Origin: Serinicoccus chungangensis
GTDB taxonomy: Bacteria; Actinomycetota; Actinomycetes; Actinomycetales; Dermatophilaceae
Assembly: GCF_001483745.1 (NCBI RefSeq)
Contig: NZ_LQBL01000032.1
Location: forward strand, 227,649 to 291,648
Reading direction: 5' to 3'
Length of the DNA: 64,000 nt
Under the pieces are notes generated by a model. It did not search any database and was not told where the DNA came from. It worked only from the letters and a program-made list of their open reading frames with translations. A program made the translations under genes and the position numbers. This document shows, piece after piece, positions 40,689 through 58,240 of the stretch (the first letter of the stretch is position 1; every line of letters starts with the position of its first letter).

Positions 40689-42182
40689 TCAGCGCCCGGC
40701 CCGGACCGGCTGTCCCGGGAACGCCCCCTCGTCCAGCTCGCGGTCACGCACCACGAACTCGCCCTGCACCAGCAGGTGCCGCACGCCGGTGGAGGGCCGG
40801 GTCGGGTCGGTGTAGCTCGCGCGGTCCGAGACCGCCTCCGGGTCCAGCACCACGACGTCGGCGTCCGCACCGACCGAGAGGTGACCCTTGCGGGCCGCGG
40901 CCGGGCTCACCTCGGCCAGCACCTGCGACGGCAGCCAGCTGCAGCGGCGGAACGCCTCCACCCACGTCCAGGCCCTCAGCTCCCGCACCATGATCCGCAG
41001 GGCCTTGGCGAAGGTGCCGCTCGTCCGGGGATGGGCGGTGCCGCCCGGTGGCAGGGGCCAGCGGCGCGACTCCCGGACGCCCTCGGGCCACAGGACCGGC
41101 ATCGCGTCGCTCGCGACGATGGCGTCGGGGAAGGCCAGGGCCCGCTGCAGCAGCTGCAGGTCCGCCGGCTCGCGCTCGTCGAGGAACTCGACGATGCACG
41201 CGTGGCCCGGGTCCTGTCGACGGACCTGCCGCAGGTGGGCCTCGTCCCGGATCCGGGTGCCCTCGGGCAGCAGGACCAGGTGGGTGGGGTCCAGGCCCCA
41301 GACGCCGAGCCGCTCCGGGGCGAGGAAGGCTGCGCCGATCCCGGTGCTCCCCGCACCGTAGGGGTAGGCCTCGACGGTGACGCTCGACCCCTCCGCCCGC
41401 GCGGCCGCCAGGGTCGCCAGCACCTGGTCGAGGTGCCTGCGCGAGGTGCTGTTGACGTGGCAGTGGTGCATGCGCGCCCCGGTCTCGCCGGCGGCGACGA
41501 CGATCTCCGAGCTGCCGTCCACCGGCGTGCTCGGGTCGGCCGCGGCCAGCTCCCGCACGTGGGTGAAGGTCGGCACCCCGGTCTCGGCCGCCAGCCGGGC
41601 CACCGCGGTGAACTCCGTCGGGTCGGTGCGCGGGGCATACCCCTGCAGGATGCCGATCCCCAGGGCGCCGTCGCCGACCTCGGCCCGCAGCAGCTCCAAC
41701 CACCGGGCCAGCTCGGTCGGCGAGGAGGAGCGCTGCCACTCCGCCTGCCCGAGCATCCCGAGCGAGGATGTCAGGTCCAGGGTCGGCTCCCAGCCGAGCA
41801 GCACCGTCGCCCGGGCCTGGCCCCAGGAGGCCGAGAAGCCGAAGTTCAGCGGCCGGCCCTCCTGCGCCGTGCGCCGGTAGGCGAGGTCCACCGGCATGAG
41901 CCCACCCTCCAGCTCCAGCGCGGTGGTGACGCCGTCCATCGCCTGGAGGCGTTGCCCGGCGACCGAGTTCACGTGGCTGTGCAGGTCGACGAACCCGGGC
42001 CCGACGACGCAGCCGCTCACGTCCAGCACCTGCGCGCCGTCCGGGGCCGGCAGCGTGGGGCCGACCGCGTGCACCCGGCCCCCCGCCAGGTGCACGTCGA
42101 CGACCCGCTCGTCCCCCCGGGCGGGGTCGGCGACCCGGCCCCCGCGCAGCACGACGTGGGCGGGGGCGGTGGCGCCGGTCAC
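40689..42182 (-). CDS. N-acyl-D-amino-acid deacylase (D-aminoacylase family amidohydrolase)
   Basis: A 497-residue metal-dependent amidohydrolase that removes the acyl group from N-acyl-D-amino acids. The N-terminal beta-sandwich strand VLRGGRVADPARGDERVVDVHLAGG leads to the metal-binding GFVDLHSHVNS near residue 63-73, and later IVASDAMPVLWPEG near 360 carries the catalytic Asp. The conserved Cys seen in this subgroup is not obvious in the expected position. It is the last gene of the eight-gene operon, its GTG overlapping the preceding stop by four bases. The alternative of a dihydroorotase- or hydantoinase-like enzyme is less likely. Confidence 0.85.
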   Translation of the reverse strand: MTGATAPAHVVLRGGRVADPARGDERVVDVHLAGGRVHAVGPTLPAPDGAQVLDVSGCVVGPGFVDLHSHVNSVAGQRLQAMDGVTTALELEGGLMPVDLAYRRTAQEGRPLNFGFSASWGQARATVLLGWEPTLDLTSSLGMLGQAEWQRSSSPTELARWLELLRAEVGDGALGIGILQGYAPRTDPTEFTAVARLAAETGVPTFTHVRELAAADPSTPVDGSSEIVVAAGETGARMHHCHVNSTSRRHLDQVLATLAAARAEGSSVTVEAYPYGAGSTGIGAAFLAPERLGVWGLDPTHLVLLPEGTRIRDEAHLRQVRRQDPGHACIVEFLDEREPADLQLLQRALAFPDAIVASDAMPVLWPEGVRESRRWPLPPGGTAHPRTSGTFAKALRIMVRELRAWTWVEAFRRCSWLPSQVLAEVSPAAARKGHLSVGADADVVVLDPEAVSDRASYTDPTRPSTGVRHLLVQGEFVVRDRELDEGAFPGQPVRAGR

Positions 42183-43558
42183 CCGACCGGGACCCGCCGG
42201 GCCAGCCGCCCACCCAGGTGCACCCCGGAGACGGTGCCGTCCGCCTCCCGGACGAAGGTCCCCTTCATCCCGGTCGACGACCCGCTGGTGGTGACGAACT
42301 CGTCCTCGCGAACCATGCCCAACGAGATCGGCGGCTCGACGAACTCCTCGCGGGTGGCGCCGAGGGAGTCCAGGAAGGCCTGCTTGGGCTCCATCATCAC
42401 CGACAGGGCACGGTCCTGCAGCGAGACCTCGATGGTCAGCGCCACCGTGTCGTAGCTGCCCAGGTAGGCCTCCAGCTCCGCCGGGTCACGGTCGACCGGG
42501 TCGGGAGTGCGCTGTCGCAGACCGAGGAACTCCTCGCGGACCCGGCGCACCACGGCGTTGTTGAAGACCGTGCCCGGCCCGGACGCGTTCGTCGTGCTGG
42601 TGATGCCGAAGCCGCGCTCCGGGACCATGGTGAAGGCGGACTCCTGCCCGATCGTGCTGCCGCCGTGCGCCACCACCCGGGCGCCGTCCAGGTCCTCGAG
42701 CATCCAGGAGATGCCGATGTGGTCCCCGAGCGCCGACCCCTTGACGGTCACCGTCGGCTCCTGCATCGCCCGCAGCGAGGCCTCCTCCAGCACCCGGGTG
42801 CCGTCCGGGGCGGTGCCGTCGCCCAGGTGGAAGCGGATCCAGCGGACCAGGTCGCCCGCGTTCGCGGTGATCCCGCCGGCAGGGGCGCTCCCGCGCGGCA
42901 TGCTCCACGGGCGGGCGACCGCCATCGTCTCCCCCGCGGGGACGTGGCCCACGGCGAACCGGTGGGTCATGACGTCCTCGGGCAGGAACAGGCTGTGCTC
43001 CAGGCCCAGCGGCCCGAAGATCAGCTCGGCCATCGCCTGCTCGTAGGTGCGGCCGGTGACCACCTCGATGATGCGCCCCGCCACCGACAGGGAGGCGTTG
43101 TTGTAGGACATCCCCGCCCCGACCGGGAACTCCTGCTGGGCGTCGGCGAGCCCCGCCACGAAGCGGGCGAGCGCGTCGTCACCCCGGTCGCGGACGTCCC
43201 CCATCCGGTCGCCGGACCACCCCGCCGTGTGGTTGAGCAGGTTGAGCACGGTGGCCCGGGCGGAGGCCTCCTCGTCGGTGACGGCGAAGTCGGGCAGGTA
43301 GCGCCGGACCGGCGCATCGAGGTCCACCTCGCCCCGGTCCACCAGCCGCATGACGGCGCTGGCCGTGAAGGTCTTGCCCGTGGAGCCGAACTGGAAGAGG
43401 GTGCCCTCGTCGACCGGCAGCGGGTGCTCCACGCTGGTCACCCCGTGGTAGGCGTAGTGGTCCTCGTCGTCGAGGACCATCCCGACGGCGACCCCTGGGA
43501 CGCCCGCCCGCTCGGCCTCGTCGCTCACGATCTCCTGCAGTCGGTCCTGGGTGCTCAT
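42179..43558 (-). CDS. Serine hydrolase of the beta-lactamase/S12 family (second of two)
   Basis: A 459-residue serine hydrolase. The nucleophile motif is GSTGKTFTA with Ser59 and Lys62, the second motif is SYNNASL (YxN) near residue 143, and the third is HGGS near 300. There is no signal peptide, so it should work in the cytoplasm, unlike secreted beta-lactamases. Residues from about 345 form a second, lipocalin-like domain as in D-aminopeptidases and related S12 enzymes. Together with its neighbour (next upstream gene) it is best explained as a peptidase acting on imported D-amino-acid peptides, but the substrate is inference. Confidence 0.88.
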   Translation of the reverse strand: MSTQDRLQEIVSDEAERAGVPGVAVGMVLDDEDHYAYHGVTSVEHPLPVDEGTLFQFGSTGKTFTASAVMRLVDRGEVDLDAPVRRYLPDFAVTDEEASARATVLNLLNHTAGWSGDRMGDVRDRGDDALARFVAGLADAQQEFPVGAGMSYNNASLSVAGRIIEVVTGRTYEQAMAELIFGPLGLEHSLFLPEDVMTHRFAVGHVPAGETMAVARPWSMPRGSAPAGGITANAGDLVRWIRFHLGDGTAPDGTRVLEEASLRAMQEPTVTVKGSALGDHIGISWMLEDLDGARVVAHGGSTIGQESAFTMVPERGFGITSTTNASGPGTVFNNAVVRRVREEFLGLRQRTPDPVDRDPAELEAYLGSYDTVALTIEVSLQDRALSVMMEPKQAFLDSLGATREEFVEPPISLGMVREDEFVTTSGSSTGMKGTFVREADGTVSGVHLGGRLARRVPVG

Positions 43559-45042
43559 GCTGCGTCCTCTCCGGAGGTCTCGGGGCTGGCGGGGGTGGTC
43601 ATGGGGTTGGCTCGCACGCCGTAGTGGACGTACCTCACACCGGTGTCGAGCTGGTAGAAGGTCACCGGGACGTGGGTGTCGAGTCCCGGCGGTGTCGCGG
43701 CATACAGCCCCTCGGACACCGCGACCATCGGCCACCGCTGCACGGCGCTGTCCGGCTCGAGCTCGGCCAGCACGCCCCGCATCGTCTGGGTGATCATCGG
43801 CGTCCCGTCCTCGAGGGAGATCTGGGTGGTGACGGAGGCTCGCTCGTAGGTCCCCAGCCACGGGGTGAGGTCGAGCTGGGGCGGGTCCTCCGGCGGGGTG
43901 AAGGCCGGGGGCATCCGGACCTCCCTCAGCTCCTCGAACAGCTCGGTGAACAGCTGCTGGTAGAGCTCGCGCGTGCGTCCGCCGTTCGTCAGCAGGGCGA
44001 CCGCGAAGCCCCCGTCGGGGTCGCCGTCCGCCCCGGGCAGGACCCGCAGGAAGGCGTTCTGCCCCAGGGTCGTGCCGTCGTGCCCGATGAGCCGCTGCCC
44101 GTCCCAGTCGAACCTGATCCAGCCCAGACCCCAGGAGTCCCCGCCGAGGGAGTACGGGTCCGGCACCGTCGCCTGGTGCTCGGTCATCTGCCGCGCGGCG
44201 TCCTCGCTCAGCAGGCGACGTCCGTCCGGCGCGACGCCCCCGGCGAGGTGGGCGCGGGTGAAGCAGAGCAGGTCGTGCACCCGGCTGGAGATGAGACCGG
44301 CCGGGCCCATGGACCTCGGCAGCAGCAGCTGCGGGGTCGGGTGCGGTGCCTCCCCCGGGGTACCGACGTGCCCGATGGCCGCCGCGCGCAGCATGGTCTC
44401 CTCGGGCAGCGTCGTGGTGTGGGTCAGACCCAGCGGTTCGATGATGCGGCTGCGCAGCGCCCCGTCCCAGGTCTGCCCGGTCACCTTCTCGACGATGGCG
44501 CCGAGCACGACGTAGCCGGAGTTGCAGTAGGACCAGGTCGCGCCCACCGGGTGGTTCTGCCCGATCGTGCCTGCCTGCTCCAGGTACCGGGCGACGCAGT
44601 CGTCGCCGCGCCCGGTGTCGGTGAAGACGTCGCCGTCCATGCCGCTGGTGTGGGCGAGCAGCTGGCGGACCGTGATCTCGGCGGCCGCGGCCTCGTCCAC
44701 CAGGGTGAAGTCCGGCAGCACCTCGACCACGCGCTGGTCCAGCTGGAGGTGCCCCTCGTCGACGAGCTGCAGGACCAGGGTCGCGGTCCACACCTTGGAG
44801 ATGGACCCGATCTGCCACAACGAGTCGGGGGTGGCCGCGGCGCCGGTCTCGGTGGACAGGACCCCGGCGGTGACCTCGGTTATCGCGCCGTCCCTGAGGA
44901 TGCCGAGCGACGCGCCGGGGACCTGGTATGCGGCGATCAGCTCGGTGAGACGTCGGCGCCAGTAGGCGGTGTCGGCCGGGGTGGTCGAGCTGGGGCGGTG
45001 CGTGGCCCGGCCCGTGGCGGGCGGCGCGGTGTCGGTACTCAT
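43555..45042 (-). CDS. Serine hydrolase of the beta-lactamase/S12 family (first of two)
   Basis: A 495-residue paralogue of the following gene. The motifs are GSISKVWTA with Ser80 and Lys83, SYCNSGYV (YxN) near residue 167 and HDGT near 325. A 30-residue hydrophilic N-terminal extension is present, and no signal peptide is seen. The C-terminal beta domain begins near 390 (LTPWLGTYERASVTTQISL). Its ATG overlaps the end of the S9 peptidase gene by four bases, and its own end overlaps the second paralogue. The sequences differ enough to suggest different substrates rather than recent duplication. Confidence 0.88.
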   Translation of the reverse strand: MSTDTAPPATGRATHRPSSTTPADTAYWRRRLTELIAAYQVPGASLGILRDGAITEVTAGVLSTETGAAATPDSLWQIGSISKVWTATLVLQLVDEGHLQLDQRVVEVLPDFTLVDEAAAAEITVRQLLAHTSGMDGDVFTDTGRGDDCVARYLEQAGTIGQNHPVGATWSYCNSGYVVLGAIVEKVTGQTWDGALRSRIIEPLGLTHTTTLPEETMLRAAAIGHVGTPGEAPHPTPQLLLPRSMGPAGLISSRVHDLLCFTRAHLAGGVAPDGRRLLSEDAARQMTEHQATVPDPYSLGGDSWGLGWIRFDWDGQRLIGHDGTTLGQNAFLRVLPGADGDPDGGFAVALLTNGGRTRELYQQLFTELFEELREVRMPPAFTPPEDPPQLDLTPWLGTYERASVTTQISLEDGTPMITQTMRGVLAELEPDSAVQRWPMVAVSEGLYAATPPGLDTHVPVTFYQLDTGVRYVHYGVRANPMTTPASPETSGEDAA

Positions 45043-47075
45043 GAGGGCTCCTTCTCGGTGGGCTGGCGGTCGACGTGCCGGGTGATCCAGTCGACGACCC
45101 GGTCGTGGTAGTCGCGTCGGTGCGAGGGTCGTCCGGCCAGGATGAACAGGTGGGACGCCCCCGGGTAGAGCACGAGCACGGGGTGCTGGCCCCGGGCGCG
45201 CAGCGCGGCGAACCACAGCTCCGCCTGCCCCGCCGGGCAGCGCTCGTCCTCGGCCCCGTGCAGGATGAGCGTGGGCGTGCGGACCCGGTCGACGGCGCTC
45301 ATCGGGGACTGCTCCCACACCCGGTCGTGGTCGAGGGAGCCCAGCTCCAGCGCGATGGTGGGGTGGCCGACGTCGCTGGCGAGCATGCTCGCCGTGTCCG
45401 CGACGACACCACCGGCGACCGCCGCGGCGAAGCGCTGGGTGTGCCCGGTCAACCAGCAGGTGGTGTAGCCGCCGTAGCTGTAGCCGGTGACCGCGAGCCG
45501 CTCGCCGTCGGCGACCCCCTCCGCGACGAGCTGGTCGAGCGGCTCCAGGAAGTCGGCCTGGTCCCCCGCGCCCCAGCGGCCCACGTTGGCCAGGAAGAAG
45601 TCCTCGCCGTAGCCGTCGCTGGCCCGGGGGTTCAGCAGCAGCACCGACCAGCCACGGGCCACGAGCGTCTGGTGGTAGACGTGCGCGGCGTCGGGGCTGG
45701 GGCCCCACGCGTTGTGCGGCCCACCGTGCACGTCCAGCAGGAGGGGGGTGGGGCCCACCGCCCCCTCGGGACGGAGCAGGAAGCCGTGCACCGTGCGACC
45801 GTCGGAGATGGCGAAGCGGCGTTCCTCGGGCTGTCGTGGCGCGAGGCCGGGCAGCGAGTCGGCGGTGTGGGACGTCAGGGTGCGGCGGCGTCCGTCCGCG
45901 AGGTCGAGCAGCTGGACCTCGCCGTAGCTGCCCTCCTCGGCGACCACCAGGGCGGCGACCGGGGCCCGGGTCGCCACGGAGAGCCCGGAGACCTCGGCCC
46001 AGCCGCCGGCGAGCACCGGAGCCGGGCCCTCCCGACCCGCCGACCCCGAGGTGCCCACCCGGGCCCGGTAGAGGCCGGTGGACCCCTGGTCCCTGGCGCA
46101 GAAGAGCAGGTCGCCCTCCACCGTCAGCTGCGGCAGCCCACCGGGATAACCGGGGCCGCCGGGCATGACGTTGCGGTCCAGACCCTCGGTGAGCGAGGTG
46201 AGCTCCCCCTGGACGCCCTGCAGCACGTGCAGGTGGCCCAGACCCGGGTCGCGCCGCCCCACCACCAGCAGCCGTGAGCCGTCGGGGTGCCAATCGGCCA
46301 GCACCACCATCGCGTCCTCGGGCGTGAGCCGTCGCAGGTCCGCCTGTGACCGCGGTCCGTCCTCGGTCCGGACCGGGACCTCGTAGGCCGCGCCGGCCAG
46401 CCGCAGGTCCGCGTCCTCGCCCAGCGCGGCGCAGGTGACGAGGCGGTCCCCGTCGGGGTGCCACCGGGGCGGGCCGAGGTCCGCCGGTCCGGTGGTCAGC
46501 TGCCGGCACCTCCGGGCGCCGGCCCTGGTCGTGGGGACGACCTCGGTGCCCGCGCCGCCGTCGACCTCGAGGAGGTGCACCTGGGCACGGGCGGACCCCG
46601 CGAGACCGCCCCCGTCGCTCTTGTAGCCCAGCCGGTCGACCACGACGGGTGGTGTCCCGGGCGCGTCCTGCTCCTCCTCCCCCGGGGTGCCCTCGACCGG
46701 GGCGGTGAAGGCGACGGCCGACCCGTCCGGGCTCCAGACGGCCGCGCCCGCCCCCGAGGCCAGGTGGGTGAGCACCTCCACCTCACCCGGCCCGTCCAGC
46801 GGGAGCAGGTGGAGCTGCGGGACGCCGTCGACGGGGCGCAGGAAGGCCACCCGGCTGCCGTCGGGACTCACCCGTGGAGCGCTGTCACGTCGACCCTGCG
46901 TGAGGGGTCTGGCGTGCTCCCCCGGGGTGACCCACCACAGCTGGCTCCGGTCCTCGTCGCGCTCCCTGTCCACGGTGGTGACGACGTAGACGACGGCGCC
47001 CCCGTCGGGCAGGACCGCCGGGTCGCTGGGCCGCTGCAGGCGCTCCATCGCGGTCAGGTCGGGCAGGGAGCTCAC
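45039..47075 (-). CDS. S9 family (prolyl oligopeptidase-type) peptidase
   Basis: A 678-residue cytoplasmic serine peptidase. The N-terminal two thirds are a beta-propeller with repeated WSPDGS/WHPDG blades (for example near residues 115 and 195). The C-terminal alpha/beta hydrolase domain has the nucleophile motif VTGYSYGGYTT near 532-542, the catalytic Asp in LHGAEDERCP near 605 and His in PGASHLF near 640. No signal peptide is seen. Dipeptidyl or acylaminoacyl peptidases of this family cleave short peptides, which fits the importer encoded upstream. The GTG start overlaps the ATPase gene's stop. Confidence 0.92.
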   Translation of the reverse strand: MSSLPDLTAMERLQRPSDPAVLPDGGAVVYVVTTVDRERDEDRSQLWWVTPGEHARPLTQGRRDSAPRVSPDGSRVAFLRPVDGVPQLHLLPLDGPGEVEVLTHLASGAGAAVWSPDGSAVAFTAPVEGTPGEEEQDAPGTPPVVVDRLGYKSDGGGLAGSARAQVHLLEVDGGAGTEVVPTTRAGARRCRQLTTGPADLGPPRWHPDGDRLVTCAALGEDADLRLAGAAYEVPVRTEDGPRSQADLRRLTPEDAMVVLADWHPDGSRLLVVGRRDPGLGHLHVLQGVQGELTSLTEGLDRNVMPGGPGYPGGLPQLTVEGDLLFCARDQGSTGLYRARVGTSGSAGREGPAPVLAGGWAEVSGLSVATRAPVAALVVAEEGSYGEVQLLDLADGRRRTLTSHTADSLPGLAPRQPEERRFAISDGRTVHGFLLRPEGAVGPTPLLLDVHGGPHNAWGPSPDAAHVYHQTLVARGWSVLLLNPRASDGYGEDFFLANVGRWGAGDQADFLEPLDQLVAEGVADGERLAVTGYSYGGYTTCWLTGHTQRFAAAVAGGVVADTASMLASDVGHPTIALELGSLDHDRVWEQSPMSAVDRVRTPTLILHGAEDERCPAGQAELWFAALRARGQHPVLVLYPGASHLFILAGRPSHRRDYHDRVVDWITRHVDRQPTEKEPS

Positions 47076-48079
47076 GGCGCCTCCACGGTCTGGGGGTCAC
47101 GGGGTCGGGGGGAGGGCAGGTCAACCCGCTCTCCCGGGAACCAGCAGGCCGCCCGGTGCGGGCGGTCACCGGACCCGTCGGAGGGGTCCTCGTCGACGCA
47201 CTGCTGACGTCCGGGCAGGACCATGGGTCCCCGGGGGCAGCGTGGGTGGAACCGGCAGCCGGTCGGGGGGGCGTGCGGGTCGGCCGGCTCGGTGTCCTGC
47301 ACCTGCGGGGGCAGCGTGCTCGCGGCCAGCGAGGTGCCCACGCGGGGGGCGGTCGAGAGCAGCAGCCGGGTGTAGGGGTGCTGCGGGTCCGCGACCAGCT
47401 CGGCGGTCGGGCCGACCTCGACGATCCTGCCGAGGTACATCACCGCCACGATGTCGCAGACGTAACGGACGACCGCCAGGTTGTGGGAGATGAAGAGCAT
47501 CGACAGGTTCAGCTCGGCGCGCAGCTCGCGGATGAGGTTGAGCATCGCGCCCTGCACCGACACGTCCAGCGCCGAGGTGATCTCGTCGGCGATGATGACC
47601 TCCGGGCGCGCGGCGATGGCACGGGCCACCGACACCCGCTGGCGCTGCCCGCCCGAGAGGGCTGCCGGCATCCGTCCGGCCAGTCCCGGATCGAGGTGGA
47701 CCAGCTCCAGCAGCCGCGCCACCTCCGCCTCCCGCTCCCGCCGGGGGACCGCACCGGCCACCCCCAGCGCCTCGGTCAGGCTGGCCCGGACGCTCATCCG
47801 GGGGTCGAGGGCGGCCACCGGGTCCTGGAACACCATCTGCACCGGGCGGCGCCCCCGACGCGGCAGTGGCCGGCCGCTGGCGGTGATGCTGCCCGCGGTC
47901 ACCGGGGCCATCCCGATGGCGGCCCGGGCCAGAGTGGACTTGCCCGAGCCGGACTCCCCCACCAGGCCCACCACCGACCCGGCAGGCACCTGCAGGGTCA
48001 CGTCGTCGACGGCCCGGAGCGTCTGCGTCCCGGTGCCGTAGGTGACGGTCACGTCGCGGAAGTCCAGGGCCGGGATCAC
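47072..48079 (-). CDS. Oligopeptide ABC transporter ATP-binding protein (OppF/DppF type)
   Basis: A 335-residue ATPase. Walker A is GESGSGKST near residue 40, the signature is LSGGQRQRVSVARA near 140 and Walker B is IIADEITSALD near 162. The C-terminal oligopeptide-transporter extension contains GCRFHPRCPRGP near 280, as in OppF. The GTG at 48079 overlaps the end of the fused permease-ATPase by four bases. It provides the second ATPase of the importer. Confidence 0.93.
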   Translation of the reverse strand: MIPALDFRDVTVTYGTGTQTLRAVDDVTLQVPAGSVVGLVGESGSGKSTLARAAIGMAPVTAGSITASGRPLPRRGRRPVQMVFQDPVAALDPRMSVRASLTEALGVAGAVPRREREAEVARLLELVHLDPGLAGRMPAALSGGQRQRVSVARAIAARPEVIIADEITSALDVSVQGAMLNLIRELRAELNLSMLFISHNLAVVRYVCDIVAVMYLGRIVEVGPTAELVADPQHPYTRLLLSTAPRVGTSLAASTLPPQVQDTEPADPHAPPTGCRFHPRCPRGPMVLPGRQQCVDEDPSDGSGDRPHRAACWFPGERVDLPSPRPRDPQTVEAP

Positions 48080-50058: not shown

Positions 50059-50059
50059 C

Positions 50060-51088
50060 TCAGGCCTCCCTGATCGTGGACCTGGGGTCCAGCATCGAGA
50101 GCGCGATGTCCACCACCAGGGTGATGGTGAGGACCATGGCGCCGTAGATCAGCACGATGGCCTGCATCAACGGGTAGTCCTTGGTGATGATGGAGCTGAC
50201 CATCGTCGGCCCCAGACCGGGCCAGGCGAAGATGCTCTCCACGATGACGGTCGAGGCGATGAGCCCGGAGAGCAGCAGACCGCCGAGCGTGATGGTGGCG
50301 GTCAGGGCGTTCGGCAGGGCGTGCCGCAGGTAGACCCGGCGCGGGCGCAGCCGCTTGGCCCGTGCGGTCCGCACGAAGTCCCGGCCCAGCACGCTGAGCA
50401 GCTCCACCCGCACGATGCGCGACAGCGCGAGGGCGGAGCCGAGGGACAGCGCGGCCACGGGCAGGACCAGCGAGGCCGGGCCGGCGTTGCCGGCGATCGG
50501 CAGGAGCTCCAGACGGACCGCGAAGACGTAGACCAGCACCACACCCATGAGGAACTCGGGGATGGCCGAGACCACCATGGCGATCCCGGTGTAGCCCAGC
50601 TCCAGCAGACGGTGCCGCCCGTGCTGGGTCAGCACCGCCATCCCCGTGCCGATCGGCAGGGCGACGAGCAGCGTGACCACGAAGGTCAGCCCGGCCAGCA
50701 GCAGGGTGTTCGGCAGCCGCTCGGCGATGACCTGCGTCACCGGCAGCCGCGACTGCAGCGAGACCCCCCAGTCACCGCTCACGAGGTCACCCAGGTAGCG
50801 CACGTACTGGCTCAGCAGGGGCTCGTCGAGGTGCAGCTCGGCGCGCCGCGCGGCGACGAGCTCGGGCGAGGCGTTGACGCCGAGGGCCGCCCGCACCGGG
50901 TCACCCGGGATGAGGTGGATCATCGCGAAGGCGAAGGTGACCAGCAACCAGAGCGAGAGGGCGAACACCCCGAGGCGACGGACGACATACCTCGTCCACG
51001 TGCGCCGCGCCCCGGTGCGCGTGGCCCCCGCCCCGGCACCGAGGCGCGGCGCGGCGGCGTCGGTGCCGGTGTCGGTCGCGGCCGTCAC
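50060..51088 (-). CDS. ABC transporter permease (DppB type)
   Basis: A 342-residue permease. After a 30-residue Arg/Ala-rich N-terminus, the first membrane segment is VFALSLWLLVTFAFAMIHLI. IPGDPVRAALG and the LGVSLQSRLPVTQVI block follow near residues 52-110, and the coupling loop DFVRTARAKRLRPRRVYLRHAL is near 215-240. The GTG at 51088 overlaps the substrate-binding protein's stop by four bases. It is separated from the fused permease-ATPase by 1 bp. Confidence 0.92.
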   Translation of the reverse strand: MTAATDTGTDAAAPRLGAGAGATRTGARRTWTRYVVRRLGVFALSLWLLVTFAFAMIHLIPGDPVRAALGVNASPELVAARRAELHLDEPLLSQYVRYLGDLVSGDWGVSLQSRLPVTQVIAERLPNTLLLAGLTFVVTLLVALPIGTGMAVLTQHGRHRLLELGYTGIAMVVSAIPEFLMGVVLVYVFAVRLELLPIAGNAGPASLVLPVAALSLGSALALSRIVRVELLSVLGRDFVRTARAKRLRPRRVYLRHALPNALTATITLGGLLLSGLIASTVIVESIFAWPGLGPTMVSSIITKDYPLMQAIVLIYGAMVLTITLVVDIALSMLDPRSTIREA

Positions 51089-52704
51089 TGGCCGAGGCGC
51101 AGGGAGCTGCCGTCCAGCTCGCCACCGGGGTACTCGAGGGTGCCACCGCTGAGGTAGGTGCCCGCGACGGCGTCGAACATCGGCACCACGTCGCCCTCGG
51201 AGATCAGGGCCGTCTCGGCCTCGTTCCAGAGCTCGCAGGCGGTCTCGGTGTCGCCGGTGGCCAGCGCCTCGGTGGAGCGCTCGTTGTAGGTGGCGTTGTC
51301 GAGGTGCCCGAAGTTCGTGCCGTCGGGTGCCGCGGGGCCGGAGAAGAAGGGCACCAGCTGGCTCGGCAGGCTGACGGTGATGGGCACCCAGCCCGCGTCC
51401 CAGTCCCCGGTGGCGAACAGGACCTCGTTGAGCTGGGTCGAGGTGACGCTCTGCAGGGTGACGTCCGCGCCGACCTCGCGCCACATCTGCTCGACCAGCT
51501 CCGCCGCAGCGGCGACCGAGTCCCCGGTGGCGGCGGGGTAGATGAAGGTCATCGCGAGGGGCTCGCCGTCCTTGGCCCGCACCCCGTCCGGGCCGGCGCT
51601 CCAGCCGGCCGCGTCCAGGGCCGCCGCGGCGGCGGCGGAGTCGTAGGTCGGCAGGTTGCCCGAGACGGTGTCGCCCTGGCAGGGCTTGGGCTCGGTGGTG
51701 ACCAGCCCCACCGACTGGGCGTCCTCGCGGCCGGTGGCGACGGTGGCCAGGGCCTCGATGTTCAGGGCCTGCAGCAGGGCCTGCCGGACCTCGGGGTCGG
51801 AGCCGGGCTGGCCCTCCGCCTGGTTGAAGACGAACTCTCCCTGCGGGGAGCGCAGCTCGATCTTCTCGACACCCTCGCTGTCGAGACGGTCGGCGTCCGC
51901 ACCGATCACCGTCGCCGCGTTGACCTCCCCCGACAGCACGAGGTTGGTGAGCGTCGTCGGGTTGGCGATCACCCGCACGACGACCTCCTCGGGGACCCCT
52001 TCGCCCTCCAGGGAGGTGCCGTCGGGACCCCAGGCGTAGTCGGCACGCCGCGTGTAGGTGTAGTGGTCGTCGGCCACCGCCTCGGACAGCACCCAGGGGC
52101 CGGTGCCGTGCGTCTCCTGGGCCAGCGCGTCGTGGTCGTCGAGCCCGCTGCGGCAGAGGATGAAGACGTTGGTGAAGCCGTTGAGGAGGAAGGCGTTCGG
52201 CTCGGGCGCGGTCACGGTGACGGTCCCGGCGTCGTCGTCCGCCTCGGTGGTCAGGCCGGCGGGGACGAAAACCCCCAGCAGCGGGCTCTGGTTCTCCGGG
52301 TCGGTGATGTAGTCCAGGTTGTCCTTGACGTCCGTGGCGGTCAACGGGCTGCCGTCCGAGCAGGTGACGTCCGGGTCGAGGGTGAACTCGATCTCCTGGG
52401 GCCCGACCTGCCAGTCGGTCGCCAGCTGGGACACGAAGGAACCGTCCTGACGCTGGTGGACGAGCGTGTCGTAGCTCAGCCGGCTCACGGTCCGGGTGAC
52501 CGACAGCACGGTCATGGAGGGGTCGAGGTTTCCCGGGTCGTTGCCCACGCCGAGGACGAAGCTCCCGTCGTCCACCGGCGCGGCACTGGGCTGTCCTGCG
52601 TCGTCCGTCTCGGTGCCGCCGCCCTCCCCTCCTCCTCCGGTACAGGCGGCGAGCACGGTGGCGGTGGCGGCGGCGATGGCCAGGGTCTTGGCTGAACGGT
52701 GCAC
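51085..52704 (-). CDS. Oligopeptide ABC transporter substrate-binding lipoprotein
   Basis: A 539-residue family 5 solute-binding protein that heads the eight-gene operon. The signal peptide MHRSAKTLAIAAATATVL ends in the lipobox LAAC, giving lipidated Cys21, followed by a Gly/Glu/Asp-rich linker. Family blocks are GNDPGNLDPSMTVLSVTRTVSRL near residues 54-76, DVTCSDGSPLTATDVKDNL near 112-130, and GTGPWVLSEA near 195. The GTG start at 52704 follows a GAGGAG sequence. Peptides or acylated amino acids are likely ligands by context only. Confidence 0.93.
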   Translation of the reverse strand: MHRSAKTLAIAAATATVLAACTGGGGEGGGTETDDAGQPSAAPVDDGSFVLGVGNDPGNLDPSMTVLSVTRTVSRLSYDTLVHQRQDGSFVSQLATDWQVGPQEIEFTLDPDVTCSDGSPLTATDVKDNLDYITDPENQSPLLGVFVPAGLTTEADDDAGTVTVTAPEPNAFLLNGFTNVFILCRSGLDDHDALAQETHGTGPWVLSEAVADDHYTYTRRADYAWGPDGTSLEGEGVPEEVVVRVIANPTTLTNLVLSGEVNAATVIGADADRLDSEGVEKIELRSPQGEFVFNQAEGQPGSDPEVRQALLQALNIEALATVATGREDAQSVGLVTTEPKPCQGDTVSGNLPTYDSAAAAAALDAAGWSAGPDGVRAKDGEPLAMTFIYPAATGDSVAAAAELVEQMWREVGADVTLQSVTSTQLNEVLFATGDWDAGWVPITVSLPSQLVPFFSGPAAPDGTNFGHLDNATYNERSTEALATGDTETACELWNEAETALISEGDVVPMFDAVAGTYLSGGTLEYPGGELDGSSLRLGQ

Positions 52705-52794
52705 GGAGGTCTCCTCGGCTGGGACGTGCGTTCATGATGGCAACCCCGAGCAGACCTCGGCTTCGTCGGATCAGCCGAAGATTGTGGCCCTGTT

Positions 52795-52809
52795 TGGTCC
52801 GATCGACCA
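52795..52809. promoter_or_regulatory. Inverted repeat in the divergent promoter region
   Basis: TGGTCCGATCGACCA has perfect 5-bp arms (TGGTC/GACCA) around CGATC, itself nearly palindromic. It lies in the 143 bp between the divergent SBP and M20 starts and could be an operator for the regulator encoded at 56028. A second, weaker pair (CGGCT/AGCCG) lies at about 52768-52787. No experimental support; the assignment is tentative. Confidence 0.35.
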
Positions 52810-52847
52810 TTGAACCCGCGCCGCCCGCCGCCCTAGCGTGGCGCAGT

Positions 52848-54053
52848 GTGAACACCGCTCCCGACACCCCCCGGCCGCTGCTGGTCGATGCCGACGCGCT
52901 GGTGCCGGACCTGCTCGCGGACCTGCGTCGCCTCGTGGAGGTGGAGACCCCGTCCGCCGACCTCGCAGCGGTGGCCCGAGGCGCCGCCGAGGTGGCCGAT
53001 GTCGTCGAGGAGCGGCTCGGCCGTCGTCCGGAGACGATCGTCGAGCACGGGGTCACCCACCTCCGGCTGCAGCTCGGAGGTCCGACGCGGGTCCTGCTGC
53101 TGTGCCACCAGGACACCGTGTGGCCCGTCGGCACCCTGGAGCGACTCCCCTGGTCCCAGCGGGACGGGGTCGTCCGCGGCCCGGGGACCTTCGACATGCT
53201 GACCGGCCTGGTGATGGCGGTCCACGCCTGCGCGCTGCTGCAGGATCGCTCCGGCCCAGGGGCCCTGGACGGTGTCACCCTGCTGGTGACCGGCGACGAG
53301 GAGGTCGGCTCCACGCACTCGCGGGAGCTCATCCTGCAGACGGCGCAGGGGGCGGCTGGTGTCCTGGTCCTCGAGGCGTCCGCCGACGGCGGTGCGGTCA
53401 AGGTGGCCCGCAAGGGCGCCAGCCGCTACCGCCTCGAGCTGCAGGGGGTGGCCGCTCACGCCGGGCTGGACCCCGAGCGCGGGGTGAGCGCCCTGCTCGA
53501 GCTGGCGGCACAGCTGCCCCGGATCCTCGAGCTGGCGGACCCCGAGCAGGGCACCACCGTCACGCCCACCACGTTCGCGGGAGGGACGACCACCAACACG
53601 GTGCCGGCTACGGCGACCCTCGACATCGACGTGCGTGCCGCCTCGGCCGCCGAGCTGGAGCGCGTGCACGAGGGGCTGCATACGCTGCGCGCGACCCAGG
53701 AGGGAGCGCAGGTGCGCACGGTCGGGGAGATCAACCGCTACCCGATGGAGCGGCACCACAGCGCCGAGCTCTGGGGCCGCTACGCCGACGTCTGCGCCTC
53801 GCTGGGGCTGCCGGTCCCTGACGCCGCCGCGGTCGGCGGAGCCTCCGACGGCAACTTCACCGCGGCTGCCGGGATCCCGACGCTGGACGGCCTGGGAGCG
53901 GTCGGCGGCGGGGCCCACGCCGAGCACGAGCACGTCCTGGTCGACCAGATCGCGCCCCGGACCGCGGTCCTGGCCAGGCTCGTCGAGCAGCTGCGCGACG
54001 CGGCGCCCGCCCGGGGCGGGGCATCCGCGGCACCCGGACGGAGGGCGGACTGA
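52848..54053 (+). CDS. M20 family peptidase (glutamate carboxypeptidase/N-acyl-amino acid hydrolase type)
   Basis: A 401-residue di-zinc hydrolase. The metal-binding motif LLLCHQDTVWPVG (His87, Asp89) resembles that of carboxypeptidase G2. GPGTFDMLTG holds the bridging Asp116, and TGDEEVGS near 149-156 contains the catalytic and metal-binding Glu pair. A dimerisation domain lies at about residues 190-300. In the Geobacillus D-to-L amino acid pathway an M20 enzyme removes succinate from N-succinyl-L-amino acids, and this gene is in the matching position. The GTG at 52848 gives the normal N-terminus. Confidence 0.9.
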   Translation: MNTAPDTPRPLLVDADALVPDLLADLRRLVEVETPSADLAAVARGAAEVADVVEERLGRRPETIVEHGVTHLRLQLGGPTRVLLLCHQDTVWPVGTLERLPWSQRDGVVRGPGTFDMLTGLVMAVHACALLQDRSGPGALDGVTLLVTGDEEVGSTHSRELILQTAQGAAGVLVLEASADGGAVKVARKGASRYRLELQGVAAHAGLDPERGVSALLELAAQLPRILELADPEQGTTVTPTTFAGGTTTNTVPATATLDIDVRAASAAELERVHEGLHTLRATQEGAQVRTVGEINRYPMERHHSAELWGRYADVCASLGLPVPDAAAVGGASDGNFTAAAGIPTLDGLGAVGGGAHAEHEHVLVDQIAPRTAVLARLVEQLRDAAPARGGASAAPGRRAD

Positions 54054-54054
54054 G

Positions 54055-54900
54055 ATGGCCGGTCCCCACCCCACGGCGCCTCCGCCCTCGGTCGACGGGC
54101 GCCGTCCCGCGGGCGACCTCGCCCTCACGCTGGTCACCCGTCCCGAGGAGTGCGTCGAGGTGGCGCGGCTCTTCGACCGGATCTGGTCGGTCGAGGACGG
54201 CACCATCCTGGACCGCCACATGATGGTCGCCCTCATCCACAGCCAGAACTACGTGCTCCTGGCCAGCCTGGACGGCCGTCCCGTCGGCGCGGCCGTCGGC
54301 TTCTGCGGACCGCCCGGCCAGCCCTTCCACTCGCACATCGTGGGGGTCCGCCCCGAGGCGAGCGGCCACGGCATCGGTCGGGCCATCAAGGAGCACCAGC
54401 GCCGCTGGTGCCTGGACCGGGGGATCGCGACGATGGCGTGGACCTTCGACCCCCTGGTGGCCCGCAACGCCCACTTCAACATCCGCGTGCTCGGCGCCCT
54501 CCCCCGCCACTACCACGAGGAGTTCTACGGCCCGATGCGGGACACGGTCAACGCGGGACAGGCCTCCGACCGCATGGTGGTCCGCTGGGACCTGCCGACC
54601 GGGGCCCCCTCCGACCGCACCCGGGCCACGGGCGGCGCCCCTTCCTCGACCACCGCCCACGTCGCCCTGCCGAACCAGCACGACGAGCCGGGTGGGCTCG
54701 CGCTGGACGTCCCCCCGGGCACCACGGACGTGCTGGTCGGCCTCCCCCGGGACATCGAGGGGTTGCGCCGCGACGACCCGGAGCTGGCCCGGCGGTGGCG
54801 GCAGGAGACCCGGCTCGCCCTGGGGAGCCTGCTGGCGCAGGGCTGGCAGGTGCACGACTTCGACGACGACCGGCACTACATCCTGCGGAGGGAACCATGA
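54055..54900 (+). CDS. GNAT family acyltransferase (COG3375-like)
   Basis: A 281-residue acyltransferase of the GNAT superfamily. The acyl-CoA-binding motif A is VGVRPEASGHGIGRAIKEHQRRWCLDRGI near residues 97-125. It is followed by MAWTFDPLVARNAHFNIRVLG, a block typical of the group often encoded beside N-acylamino acid racemases. The C-terminal half is longer than the minimal GNAT fold. In the Geobacillus pathway this enzyme transfers a succinyl group to D-amino acids. It starts 1 bp after the M20 stop and its end overlaps the racemase gene by four bases. Confidence 0.88.
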   Translation: MAGPHPTAPPPSVDGRRPAGDLALTLVTRPEECVEVARLFDRIWSVEDGTILDRHMMVALIHSQNYVLLASLDGRPVGAAVGFCGPPGQPFHSHIVGVRPEASGHGIGRAIKEHQRRWCLDRGIATMAWTFDPLVARNAHFNIRVLGALPRHYHEEFYGPMRDTVNAGQASDRMVVRWDLPTGAPSDRTRATGGAPSSTTAHVALPNQHDEPGGLALDVPPGTTDVLVGLPRDIEGLRRDDPELARRWRQETRLALGSLLAQGWQVHDFDDDRHYILRREP

Positions 54901-56018
54901 GGCTCACCAGCCTGCGGCTGCACCTGATCGAGATGCCGTTGCGCTCCCCGTTCACCACCTCCTTCGCCACGACCACCGCGCGCAGCTGCTACCTCGTGGA
55001 GGCCCGGGCCACCACCTCCGACGGCCGCGAGGTGACCGGCTGGGGAGAGTGCGTGGCGATGGAGGCGCCCCTCTACTCCGCGGAGCACCTCTCGGGTGCG
55101 GTCGAGGTCACCCGCCGCTGGCTGGCCCCGTCGCTGTTCGCGGTCGAGGACCTGACCGCCGAGACCGTCGGGTGGCACCTGCGGCACGTCGTCGGGCACC
55201 CGATGGCCAAGGCCGCCCTGGAGATGGCGGTGCTCGACGCGCAGCTGCGCGCCCACGACCAGTCCTTCGCCGACTACCTGGGGGCGGTCCGGACGAGCGT
55301 GCCCAGCGGGGTCTCGGTCGGCATCCAGCCGTCGGCGCAGGAGACCGTCCGCGTCGTCGGGGAGTTCCTCGATCAGGGGTATGCCCGGATCAAGCTCAAG
55401 ATCCAGCCGGGCAGCGACCTGGTCCCGGTCCGGGCGGTCCGGGAGGCGTTCGGGGACGACCTGCTCTTCCAGGTGGACGCCAACGCCGCCTACACCCTGG
55501 CCGACGTCGGCCTGCTCCGCCGCCTCGACGACGCCGACCTGCTGCTCATCGAGCAGCCGCTCGGGGAGGCGGACCTGCGGCAGCACGCCGAGCTCGCGCG
55601 CCAGGTGCGCACCCCCGTCTGCCTGGACGAGTCCATCGTCTCGGCCGAGGCGGCCGCGGATGCCATCGCCCTCGGGGCGACGTCCGTCATCAACATCAAG
55701 CCGGGACGGGTGGGGGGCTACCTGGAGGCGCGCCGCATCCACGACCTGGCGCGGGCGCACGGCATACCCGTGTGGTGCGGGGGGATGCTCGAGACCGGGG
55801 TGGGCCGGGCGGCCAACGCGGCGCTCGCCGCGCTGCCGGGCTTCGTGCTGCCCGGGGACATCTCGGGCTCGGACCGCTTCTACGCCGAGGACGTCACGGA
55901 GCCGGTCGTCATGCGTGACGGTGCGGTCGACGTGCCGACCGGGCCGGGCTTCGGCGTCGAGGTGCGCCCTGACGCGCTGGAGCGGTTCAGCACCGCCACG
56001 CTGGAGCTCACGCCCTGA
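54897..56018 (+). CDS. N-acylamino acid racemase / o-succinylbenzoate synthase family enzyme
   Basis: A 373-residue enolase-superfamily enzyme of the MenC/NSAR group. The catalytic lysines are in RIKLKIQPG (Lys166 and Lys168) and NIKPGRVGG (Lys268). The metal ligands are Asp194 (FQVDANAAY), Glu219 (LIEQPL) and Asp244 (CLDESI). WCGGMLETGVGRAANAAL near 293-311 is typical of N-succinylamino acid racemases and bifunctional OSBS/NSAR enzymes. Coupling to an M20 hydrolase and a GNAT favours racemisation of N-acyl amino acids over menaquinone synthesis. The ATG at 54897 overlaps the GNAT stop. Confidence 0.9.
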   Translation: MRLTSLRLHLIEMPLRSPFTTSFATTTARSCYLVEARATTSDGREVTGWGECVAMEAPLYSAEHLSGAVEVTRRWLAPSLFAVEDLTAETVGWHLRHVVGHPMAKAALEMAVLDAQLRAHDQSFADYLGAVRTSVPSGVSVGIQPSAQETVRVVGEFLDQGYARIKLKIQPGSDLVPVRAVREAFGDDLLFQVDANAAYTLADVGLLRRLDDADLLLIEQPLGEADLRQHAELARQVRTPVCLDESIVSAEAAADAIALGATSVINIKPGRVGGYLEARRIHDLARAHGIPVWCGGMLETGVGRAANAALAALPGFVLPGDISGSDRFYAEDVTEPVVMRDGAVDVPTGPGFGVEVRPDALERFSTATLELTP

Positions 56019-56027
56019 GCCCCGCCG

Positions 56028-57695
56028 TCAGGACGGCGGCAGGAGCCGGAGGTGCAGCTGGGCGGCGAAGCGGGCTTCGGGGTCTGAGAGGTCCATCGCG
56101 CTGATGCTCTCGATGCGCCGCAACCGGTACCGCAGCGTGTTGGGGTGGACGTGCAGCGCGCCGGCGGCGGCCGCCACGTCGCCGTGCGCGTCGAGCCAGG
56201 CCCGCAACGTGTCCACGAACGCCGTCTGCTGCGCCCGGTCGTGCTCGACCAGGTGGGAGACCGGCCCGCTCGGCCGCTCGTCGTCGGAGAGCAGGCGGTC
56301 GCGCAGCTCCAGCAGGAAGGACTGGATCTGCACGTCACGGTAGGCGGCCACGGCGCCTCCCGACCCCTCGACCGAGCCGGTCCTGCCCTCCATGAGGACA
56401 CGGAGGGCTCGGTCGGCACCGCGACGGGCCGCCGCCAGGGCGTCGACGTCGGTAGCCAGCGGACCGATGCCCACCCGGGAGGACAGCCCCGGTCCCGTAC
56501 GCGTGACGAAGTCCCGGGCGATGCGCTGCGCGGACACCAGGCCGTCGGTGACGGGGATCAGCCCGTAGGTGACCTCTCCGAGCAGGGCCGTCGCGGCCTT
56601 GGGGTGGAGCGAGGTCAGGTGCAGGGCGAGCGCGTCGCTGAGCCGCTCCCGCTCGACCGCGTCGTGGCCGAGCGCCCCGAGGTCGTCCCCGCCCGCCGTC
56701 GACCCGCCGGAGGGTGCACCGACCTGCATCGCCAGGACGGCCACGGTCAGCCCGGCCAGGCCCAGCCGCGTCACGGCGTGCCGTGCGCGCACCCCTCCCT
56801 CGAGGGCGGTGCCGAGGAGGTCGGCGCGCAGCCGTCGTGAGGCGTCGGCGCCCGCGCGGATCCGCAGCAGGTGCAGCGCCACCAGCTTCGCCGACTCCGT
56901 CAGCGCCGCGGCCCGCTCCTCGTCGAGCTCCTCGTCGACCGCGACCCAGATGGACCCCAGCACCTCGGTCCCGGCACGGACGGCCATCGCGACCCGGAGC
57001 TTGCTGACGGCGTCCTCGCCCTGGAGGCGGATGCTGACCGGCCGGTCCGCGGCATACAGGGCGGAGAAGAACCCCTGGTCGTCCAGGAGCCGGGCGTAGC
57101 GCTCAGGCACCTGCCGCTCCAGGATCGTCTCGATGCGCGAGGGGTCGGCCTCGTCCTGGCGCCCGGAGAAGGCCAGCACGCGCGAGCTGCGGTCCTCGAT
57201 GGTGACCGGGGCGTCGACGAGGCTGCCGATCGCGTTGGCGAGCCCGAAGAGGTCGCCCGAGGGCAGACCTCCCATGGTCTCGTCGTCGGCGCCGCCGACG
57301 TCGCCCTCGGCCAGCAGCGAGCGCAGCATGGCGGTGAGCTGCGCCCACGAGGCACCGCGGGTGAGGCCGGCCACGGTCATCCCGTGCCTCCGGCAGATCG
57401 CGGTCAGAGCGGCACCCGCCTCGACCGGCTCCCGCACGATGAGCAGCGAGGCGCCCCTCGCCCCGGCGCGAGCCGCCAGCTCCGCGACCGGCTCCGCGCC
57501 GCTCACCCCCACACCGAGGACGACCGGCGAGGCCGGGTCGTGCTGGTCGTCGAGCGGGTCGTGGATGACCACGCCCTCCACGGCGCGGCCCGGGTTCCCG
57601 AGGACGAGCGGGCGCAGGAAGGTGCTGCCCAGGTCGTCGAGGACCCGACCCACCGTCGCTGAGGGCCGCGGGCTGCTCGGCCGGGCGGAGTTCAT
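56028..57695 (-). CDS. PucR family transcriptional regulator
   Basis: A 555-residue regulator. The N-terminal third (residues 10-140) is a PucR-like ligand domain, the middle (about 150-300) contains a GAF-like region, and the C-terminus carries the PucR helix-turn-helix: GDVAAAAGALHVHPNTLRYRLRRIESISA near 505-530. Members control purine, amino acid or polyamine catabolism. It is convergent with the racemase gene (10 bp between the stops) and is the only regulator next to the peptide block, so it is the best candidate for its control. The effector is unknown. Confidence 0.88.
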   Translation of the reverse strand: MNSARPSSPRPSATVGRVLDDLGSTFLRPLVLGNPGRAVEGVVIHDPLDDQHDPASPVVLGVGVSGAEPVAELAARAGARGASLLIVREPVEAGAALTAICRRHGMTVAGLTRGASWAQLTAMLRSLLAEGDVGGADDETMGGLPSGDLFGLANAIGSLVDAPVTIEDRSSRVLAFSGRQDEADPSRIETILERQVPERYARLLDDQGFFSALYAADRPVSIRLQGEDAVSKLRVAMAVRAGTEVLGSIWVAVDEELDEERAAALTESAKLVALHLLRIRAGADASRRLRADLLGTALEGGVRARHAVTRLGLAGLTVAVLAMQVGAPSGGSTAGGDDLGALGHDAVERERLSDALALHLTSLHPKAATALLGEVTYGLIPVTDGLVSAQRIARDFVTRTGPGLSSRVGIGPLATDVDALAAARRGADRALRVLMEGRTGSVEGSGGAVAAYRDVQIQSFLLELRDRLLSDDERPSGPVSHLVEHDRAQQTAFVDTLRAWLDAHGDVAAAAGALHVHPNTLRYRLRRIESISAMDLSDPEARFAAQLHLRLLPPS

Positions 57696-58154: not shown

Positions 58155-58163
58155 CACCCCCTC

Positions 58164-58183
58164 ATATTGACATAGATCGATAT
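58164..58183. promoter_or_regulatory. Imperfect ArsR operator
   Basis: ATATTGACATAGATCGATAT is an inverted repeat with one or two mismatches between its arms, 10 bp upstream of the arsR start. It contains a TTGACA on the plus strand that could be a -35 box for arsI. The site would let ArsR control its own gene as well. Confidence 0.65.
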
Positions 58184-58200
58184 GAGGTGTCAGGATCCGC

Positions 58201-58220
58201 ATATCGACATCCGTCGATAT
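58201..58220. promoter_or_regulatory. Perfect ArsR operator
   Basis: ATATCGACATCCGTCGATAT has perfect 8-bp arms (ATATCGAC/GTCGATAT) with a 4-bp spacer, 20 bp before the arsI start codon. The ATA-n-TAT form is typical of ArsR/SmtB operators and stands out in this GC-rich region. Confidence 0.75.
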
Positions 58221-58240
58221 TGTGGTCAGAAGGGAACCCC

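Follow-up and report, generated by a model that had tools for sequence, protein, structure and literature searches.

The 64,000-nucleotide stretch of the Serinicoccus chungangensis genome analysed here (the window) contains two divergent operons and a regulator gene, which together encode twelve proteins. Read 5' to 3', the minus-strand operon encodes SBP, a family 5 peptide-binding lipoprotein (51085..52704; PF00496, 1.1e-48) with a lipobox-type N-terminus by eye; the permease DppB (50060..51088; PF00528, 1.4e-33, and PF19300); a DppC-DppD permease-ATPase fusion (48076..50058) with PF00528, PF00005 and PF08352 within a single protein; the ATPase OppF (47072..48079; PF00005, PF08352); an S9 peptidase, cytoplasmic by its N-terminus (45039..47075; PF00326, 3.3e-39); two S12 serine hydrolases, S12a (43555..45042; PF00144, 2.9e-66) and S12b (42179..43558; PF00144, 7.9e-63); and a D-aminoacylase-like amidohydrolase (40689..42182; NF006560). 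These eight genes overlap by 4 bp at six junctions and lie 1 bp apart at the remaining one. On the plus strand, a carboxypeptidase G2-like M20 metallopeptidase (52848..54053; PF01546, PF07687; 1cg2, 3.8e-29) is followed after a 1-bp gap by a GNAT acyltransferase (54055..54900; PF00583, 4.6e-6), whose gene overlaps by 4 bp that of an enolase of N-succinylamino acid racemase (NSAR) type (54897..56018; 1sja, 1.6e-140). The M20 gene starts with GTG, the same start as in relative L121. The gene for a PucR-type regulator (57695-56028, minus strand; PF13556, 1.1e-22, and PF17853) is convergent with the racemase gene. These coordinates agree with the tightly packed operons described in an earlier sequence-only reading of this DNA, and its family names were borne out by Pfam and NCBIfam.

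The importer is a complete Opp/Dpp set by Pfam, comprising a family 5 SBP, two permease domains and two ATPase domains, and the counterparts of DppC-DppD in relatives also carry a permease/ATP-binding fusion annotation. By simple hydrophobicity, a signal-like N-terminus is absent from S9, both S12 proteins, the amidohydrolase and M20 (the highest 15-residue mean is 1.48 for S9 vs 1.95 for SBP), as the sequence-only reading had proposed for the hydrolases.

Two catalytic lysines, three metal ligands and an arginine favouring the NSAR reaction are the marks of an NSAR. The corresponding residues of the window enzyme (K166/K168, K268, D194, E219, D244 and R271) are conserved in 54/54 relatives, with one short match excluded, and by these residues the enzyme is predicted to be of the N-succinylamino acid racemase type. 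It shares them with the Amycolatopsis NSAR-OSBS (1sja), to which it is about 60% identical by alignment. The Amycolatopsis protein is known as an isolated enzyme, to which the present analysis adds an importer and peptidase context: in Amycolatopsis dendrobii, a racemase 97.2% identical to 1sja adjoins the importer operon. That the Amycolatopsis form of the locus holds a near-identical copy of the solved racemase is a new link. Annotation by PGAP labels the racemases of relatives menC, o-succinylbenzoate synthase, in plasmid records.

A role of the racemase only as a menaquinone OSBS, raised by the sequence-only reading, is ruled out by a separate MenC in the genome, which scores 424.6 bits (cut-off 288) on a model that gives the window racemase 68.8. 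The window racemase scores 292.7 on TIGR01928 (menC_lowGC_arch; cut-off 200.65), a model that appears to catch NSARs as well. Relatives follow the same pattern, with a separate MenC in 24/30 locus-bearing genomes and MqnA/D-family proteins in five of the other six; this test covered 30 of the 40 locus-bearing genomes besides the window's own subset, and ten of the 25 S9 genomes described below lie outside it, including G000, which was tested separately.

The NSAR, GNAT and M20 genes are adjacent in the window and in relatives, and the same GNAT family also adjoins NSAR outside this phylum, in Deinococcus, Priestia and Lysinibacillus. The metal and catalytic residues of M20 are conserved in 43/43 sequences. 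Sakai et al. (2006) reportedly described a Geobacillus pathway in which an NSAR, a GNAT succinyltransferase and an M20 enzyme irreversibly convert D- to L-amino acids. Here the same three gene families lie side by side with their catalytic residues kept, and on this basis we propose that GNAT may be a D-amino acid N-succinyltransferase and M20 an N-succinyl-L-amino acid hydrolase. Unlike the Geobacillus pathway, the locus adds a peptide importer, S9 and S12 peptidases, the amidohydrolase and PucR. Among NSAR loci on Bacillota plasmids, L205 has a peptide MFS transporter, whereas L204 and L206 have no peptide importer nearby.

The closest solved structures to the S9 peptidase are 8wt1 and 5yzm, and its catalytic S533, D610 and H642 are conserved in 80/80 relatives. 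S9 and S12a form a single open frame in 71/80 loci, and this fusion in most relatives is a new observation of this analysis. The SxxK, YxN and HxG motifs of S12a are conserved in 77/77 sequences (one short match excluded). Among solved structures, the S12 proteins come closest in sequence to IS11 (7spn, 9.8e-99 for S12b) and PBP-type cyclases, and D-peptidases rank lower (S12a vs alkaline D-peptidase 4y7p, 2.1e-24). The two proteins share the S12 fold family and the SxxK and YxN motifs with D-stereospecific S12 peptidases such as 4y7p and the resistance peptidases, but differ from them in these nearer relatives, in their N-termini and in the fusion of S12a to S9 in relatives; D-aminopeptidase function may be suggested for them on family resemblance. 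The sequence-only reading had also named exported beta-lactamases as an identity of S12a and S12b that would count against its proposal; this identity is ruled out by their N-termini and by scores of 100.1 and 84.4 bits on the class C beta-lactamase model, far under its cut-off of 415. Orthology of S12b with the second S12 gene of relatives (S12a') is not supported by a tree of all 77 single domains and 25/80 fused domains: 53 single-copy S12 proteins form a separate clade (support 0.997), and S12b belongs to a small clade with the copy from L121 and a single further sequence, with deeper nodes poorly supported.

The amidohydrolase scores 620 bits on NF006560 ('amidohydrolase family protein', cut-off 340) and matches solved D-aminoacylase-type enzymes more distantly (3gip, 9.2e-22; 1m7j, 1.2e-18). 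Homologues occur at 22/180 scanned loci, and the gene recurs next to M20-GNAT-NSAR. The metal ligands H68, H70, H208 and D359 are conserved in 22/22 and H240 in 19/22, so that the HxH, two further His and Asp expected from the earlier name D-aminoacylase are present. The bridging Cys of solved D-aminoacylases (1m7j, 3gip type) is absent; the aligned residue is Gly, next to a Glu (E92) found in 22/22. Because of this replacement the protein is classed, from its residues, as D-aminoacylase-like only and as a distant relative of those enzymes, and the earlier name stands only in part.

The two operons recur together across actinobacteria. Scanning with S9 as the anchor yielded 80 named loci, with NSAR within 10 kb in 55/80 and an eight-gene set in 38/80, spread over 13 genera; M20 lies within 10 kb of S9 in only 43/80. 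Sixteen full-flank S9 loci lacked a nearby NSAR, and in the 15 genomes of these that were searchable, NSAR was found in 15/15, in 12 of them on the same contig just past the flank of the S9 locus. Among 246 genomes of the class, all 25 carrying this S9 also have NSAR, vs 71 overall, although the 25 are not independent because all come from 8/104 genera. Both S9 and NSAR are missing from four genomes of the family to which the window belongs. Of 88 NSAR places, 80 made up the NSAR-anchored set, which omits the one in the window and seven from the 42-47% class and was split 46 + 33 with L080 left out of the split; flanks were about 9 kb, and importers are therefore undercounted. GNAT is the most constant NSAR partner (68/80 places). 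Around the close NSARs L062, L065, L067 and L073, other locus genes were not found. Co-conservation nevertheless holds in both directions, with three gene orders, and the recurrence of the layout across actinobacterial genera rules out a chance neighbourhood. The co-occurrence that the sequence-only reading had expected of the two operons is thus observed, and supports their behaving as a single conserved system.

A candidate operator also links them. The dyad TTCGTC-N6-GACGAA occurs upstream of both operons in relatives, a new observation, and in the window a copy with one mismatch lies in the divergent SBP/M20 gap (52762..52779), where it is the sole one-mismatch site in 64 kb and is conserved in L121. 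The motif is enriched ahead of both operons in relatives vs shuffled sequence (2-base blocks in one test, neighbour-preserving swaps in another), contrasts that are optimistic because the same 263 upstream regions served both to discover the dyad and to score it, and because these regions include duplicates (L127 and L225 share DNA), many Amycolatopsis sequences and perhaps some regions that are not promoters. Promoter and terminator scans of the gap gave no match. The PucR gene adjoins NSAR in many relatives, and PucR probably controls both operons via the shared dyad, to which it is presumed to bind.

The explanation we consider likely is that the locus, conserved among actinobacteria, enables the use of peptides with D-amino acids through enzymes of predicted substrates and D-selectivity. 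The lipoprotein-dependent ABC importer would take up oligopeptides, and the cytoplasmic S9 and S12 hydrolases would break them down into individual amino acids, with cleavage next to D-residues falling to the S12 parts. The amidohydrolase would strip N-acyl groups off D-amino acids or D-terminal fragments; if active on N-succinyl-D-amino acids, it would reverse the relay. GNAT would N-succinylate free D-amino acids, the racemase would invert the N-succinyl-D-amino acids and M20 would set free L-amino acids, its hydrolysis step making the conversion one-way, with PucR governing both operons through the shared dyad.

The dppABCDE-ykfABCD system of B. subtilis comprises a Dpp-type importer and M55, LdcA and NlpC/P60 enzymes. 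Our locus likewise has a Dpp-type importer, putative cytoplasmic D-residue enzymes and a member of the enolase superfamily, which holds the epimerase there, but it has S9 and S12 in place of M55, LdcA and NlpC/P60, a predicted N-succinyl relay in place of dipeptide epimerisation, and a PucR regulator. By analogy, it appears to be a dpp/ykf-like salvage logic made of other enzymes.

Several other explanations draw on the same genes. Food could consist of N-acylated peptides or N-acyl amino acids, for instance those derived from lipopeptides; M20 would then deacylate the L-form and the amidohydrolase the D-form, and the racemase would interconvert the two, D-peptides being minor and GNAT ancillary. 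NSARs show promiscuity toward the N-acyl group (PMC7431475), S9 and the amidohydrolase resemble enzymes of N-acyl substrates, and the amidohydrolase gene keeps company with M20-GNAT-NSAR; the constancy of GNAT at NSAR places is, however, hard to explain if food brings the acyl groups, and we regard this explanation as unlikely. Recycling of peptidoglycan stem peptides would follow the same logic as the B. subtilis dpp-ykf operon, with dipeptide importer, cytoplasmic hydrolases and enolase-superfamily epimerase/racemase; the ykf part, with ykfB/ykfC, is described in PMC5808125. Yet the LdcA, NlpC/P60 and M55 families gave no match among the twelve locus proteins, and Ala-Glu epimerase models reached only 61.8 and 54.2 bits (cut-offs 500 and 343). 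Such recycling is improbable, and the protein families do not favour peptidoglycan as a special peptide source.

Quite improbable, too, is a role in detoxification or resistance, in which peptide antibiotics with D-residues would be taken up and broken down by the S12 proteins while the other proteins make use of what is left. Nonribosomal peptide clusters are known to include D-stereospecific resistance peptidases (PMC9231227, PMC9541196), but uptake ahead of breakdown suits feeding better, as does the presence of a complete module for amino acid conversion, and neither S12 protein has a signal-like N-terminus. Two unrelated neighbouring operons with a menaquinone OSBS, the function implied by the PGAP name for such racemases, is a most improbable account, contradicted by the co-conservation, the shared dyad and the separate MenC.

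Within the favoured reading, use of D-residue peptides, a more specific and still tentative possibility is that S9::S12 is two-handed, the S9 half cutting L-bonds and the S12 half D-bonds, with the products passing to the irreversible succinyl relay. In combination with importer, acylase-like enzyme and PucR/dyad regulon, this might constitute a widespread, undescribed D-peptide feeding route, in which the Amycolatopsis racemase might have its true function. That long-studied enzyme seems to have its natural setting in this locus, which suggests for the Amycolatopsis NSAR/OSBS, a model case of promiscuity in enzymes, a physiological role that can be tested. The locus also points toward a peptidase in which S9 and S12 are fused and toward a regulon for which there is an operator candidate. 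If the favoured reading is true, many soil actinobacteria would have a pathway dedicated to peptides with D-residues as food.

The locus (window 40689-57695) lies in a host genome of 3.56 Mb on 33 contigs and carries eight overlapping minus-strand genes, SBP-DppB-DppCD-OppF-S9-S12a-S12b-amidohydrolase. An M20-GNAT-racemase set runs divergently from these, and a PucR gene is convergent with the racemase, an N-succinylamino acid racemase (NSAR) type enolase at 54897-56018 (+). The gene junctions described in the sequence-only reading, overlaps or 1-bp gaps, were borne out by the coordinates. The nearest relative found, another Serinicoccus locus (L121), has the same twelve genes and layout, with 96% racemase identity. 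An arsenic/heavy-metal gene set at 58139-60410 (+) encodes an ArsI/CadI-type VOC enzyme (179.4 bits, cut-off 116), an ACR3 arsenite efflux protein (442.2, cut-off 282.8) and an arsenate-reductase-like protein that scored under its cut-offs.

Searching the S9 alignment A1 against genome contigs, we took the best 80 of 383 relatives (24 genus-level labels) as anchors. Within 10 kb of S9 in these best 80 were S12a (78 loci), OppF (66), SBP and DppB (64 each), DppCD (59), GNAT (56), NSAR (55), PucR (46), M20 (43) and the amidohydrolase (5), and the set SBP, DppB, DppCD, OppF, S9, S12a, GNAT and NSAR was complete in 38 of the 80, from 13 genera. NSAR was absent near S9 in 16 of 61 full-flank loci; genome searches for 15 of them (L182 left out) found it in 15/15, on the same contig ~0.8 to 8 kb past the flank in 12 (contig coordinates) and ~245 kb from S9 on its contig for L197, while L173 and L179 have their best matches on other contigs, with not every further match placed. 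Ten of those 12 same-contig cases have the order amidohydrolase-M20-GNAT-NSAR-PucR and an eleventh has no M20 match; in these eleven an S12a'-SBP-DppB-DppCD-OppF-S9::S12a set, S12a' being the relatives' second S12 gene, then comes in the neighbouring locus. Three layouts thus exist: a single co-directional operon, two serial operons, or a divergent pair as in the window, with S9 and NSAR on one strand in 50 of 55 loci. Genes that are rearranged yet stay together look like a functional unit. Annotated examples are found in Streptomyces SYP-A7193 and Streptomyces NBC_00376; in the latter, two more short genes annotated as 'serine hydrolase' (L202:9405-10298 and 18475-19377) flank the operons. 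Eight relatives (L123, L125, L138, L151, L168, L177, L184 and L190) carry a distant second amidohydrolase, 28-31% identical to that of the window, which in Jiangella and Phytoactinopolyspora loci lies upstream of SBP.

Across 246 genomes of the class, NSAR (E <= 1e-60) occurred in 71 and S9 (E <= 1e-100) in 25, which represent 8 of 104 genera. The proposed co-occurrence of the two divergent operons in actinobacterial genomes held: all 25 S9 genomes also have NSAR (Fisher p ~1e-15, without kinship correction), and NSAR is within 10 kb in 55 of the 80 S9 loci. The locus is patchy, and may have been acquired by horizontal transfer, since four genomes from the same family as the window (G048, G081, G128, G178) lack both S9 and NSAR. 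We also fetched ~20 kb, less at contig ends, around 80 of 88 listed NSAR places. The 46 places L034-L079 had GNAT (35), M20 (33), S12a (28), PucR (26), S9 (23), OppF (22) and DppCD (18), whereas the 33 places of lower similarity, L081-L113, had GNAT (32), M20 (18), S9 (2), PucR (2) and neither DppCD nor S12a; GNAT and M20 are therefore widespread NSAR partners, and the importer and peptidases belong to one branch. Counting against co-conservation, the other locus genes were not found within reach of some close NSARs (L062, L065, L067, L073).

The racemase was considered as a menaquinone enzyme and rejected as such, since the host has a separate MenC (424.6 bits, cut-off 288). MenC exceeded its cut-off in 24 of 30 locus-bearing genomes tested; five of the six others had MqnA/MqnD-family proteins, and Streptosporangium G256 had neither. 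Two MenC-bearing control genomes had no MqnA/MqnD-family proteins. Counting the other way, the window racemase scored above threshold on the menC model TIGR01928 (292.7 vs 200.65). PGAP names the racemase genes of L201, L202 and L208 menC, with a menaquinone GO term, a naming that obscures the D-amino acid module. Compared with the solved N-acylamino acid racemase 1sja, the racemase of Amycolatopsis dendrobii (L225) shows 97.2% identity over 363 residues, the Streptomyces NBC_00376 racemase 95.9%, and the racemases from several further Amycolatopsis loci 89-91%; these genes adjoin the importer operon. A review (PMC8142540) gives kinetic data for Amycolatopsis NSARs.

Leaving aside a short match each for NSAR and S12a, the checked active-site residues were invariant in NSAR (54/54), S9 (80/80), S12a (77/77) and M20 (43/43). 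R271 of the window racemase is the equivalent of R266, the Arg reported to favour the NSAR reaction; 5yzm has been described as an S9 carboxypeptidase. All 22 amidohydrolases keep HxH, H208 and D359, 19 of them keep H240, and the bridging-Cys position has an invariant Glu next to it. S9 and S12a form a single open frame in 71 of the 80 named loci, the matched parts lying no more than 15 residues apart; they are separate but adjacent in seven, one locus meets a contig end and L193 lacks S12a. PGAP labels two fusions (1107 and 1127 residues) 'serine hydrolase'. A 2008 survey (PMC2605481) counted five multi-domain members among 254 S12 proteins, with no S9 partner named in its section 31.

The 143-bp divergent gap between SBP and M20 contains the window's only single-mismatch site (52762-52779) for a candidate operator dyad, TTCGTC-N6-GACGAA, which L121 keeps with one spacer base changed. 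The core TTCGT-N8-ACGAA occurred in 25 of 263 upstream regions (78,900 bases), out of 73 occurrences across the 2,785,769 bases of the 143 loci. Allowing up to two mismatches, the dyad matched in 13/17 regions upstream of the amidohydrolase (shuffled mean 4.3), 36/76 for S12a (12.0), 12/30 for S9 (3.2), 15/62 for SBP (2.6), 12/31 for PucR (2.7) and 0/47 for M20 (1.2), contrasts that are optimistic because the dyad was found and scored on the same 263 regions, which include duplicates (L127 and L225, for instance), many Amycolatopsis and stretches that may not be promoters. In L202, L225 and L226 the dyad lies 5' of both operons. From linkage, our guess is that PucR binds it. By eye, TTGAAC-N18-TAGCGT (52810-52848, +) lies directly 5' of the M20 GTG and differs in L121 in the spacer only; an automatic scan reported no promoter there. 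This promoter-like sequence adjoining the GTG suggests a leaderless M20 transcript.

Searches of the open literature found no paper whose title or abstract presents this locus; subscription papers were mostly outside this scope, and an earlier description is possible. The one paper found there on N-succinylamino acid racemase in connection with operons was a biocatalysis review (PMC7431475). In our best reading, peptides would be imported and cleaved by S9/S12; succinylation, racemisation and desuccinylation would then follow, and the amidohydrolase would act as an accessory deacylase. The D-selectivity and the acyl group are putative. The strongest rival is a putative role in the use of N-acylated peptides.

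The NSAR, GNAT succinyltransferase and M20 pathway was reportedly described in Geobacillus by Sakai et al. in 2006. In plasmid records from other phyla, NSAR lies beside GNAT in Priestia (L204) and Deinococcus (L203) and beside M20 in Cytobacillus (L206). On a Pseudochrobactrum algeriensis plasmid (L207:1497-11101), a single run of genes comprises a Dpp-type importer, gamma-glutamyltransferase, M20, SBP and an NSAR-like member, a second type of peptide-linked NSAR operon. On a Lysinibacillus fusiformis plasmid (L205:6315-11107), a peptide MFS transporter, M20, GNAT and racemase stand in a row, the same module tied to another kind of peptide importer.
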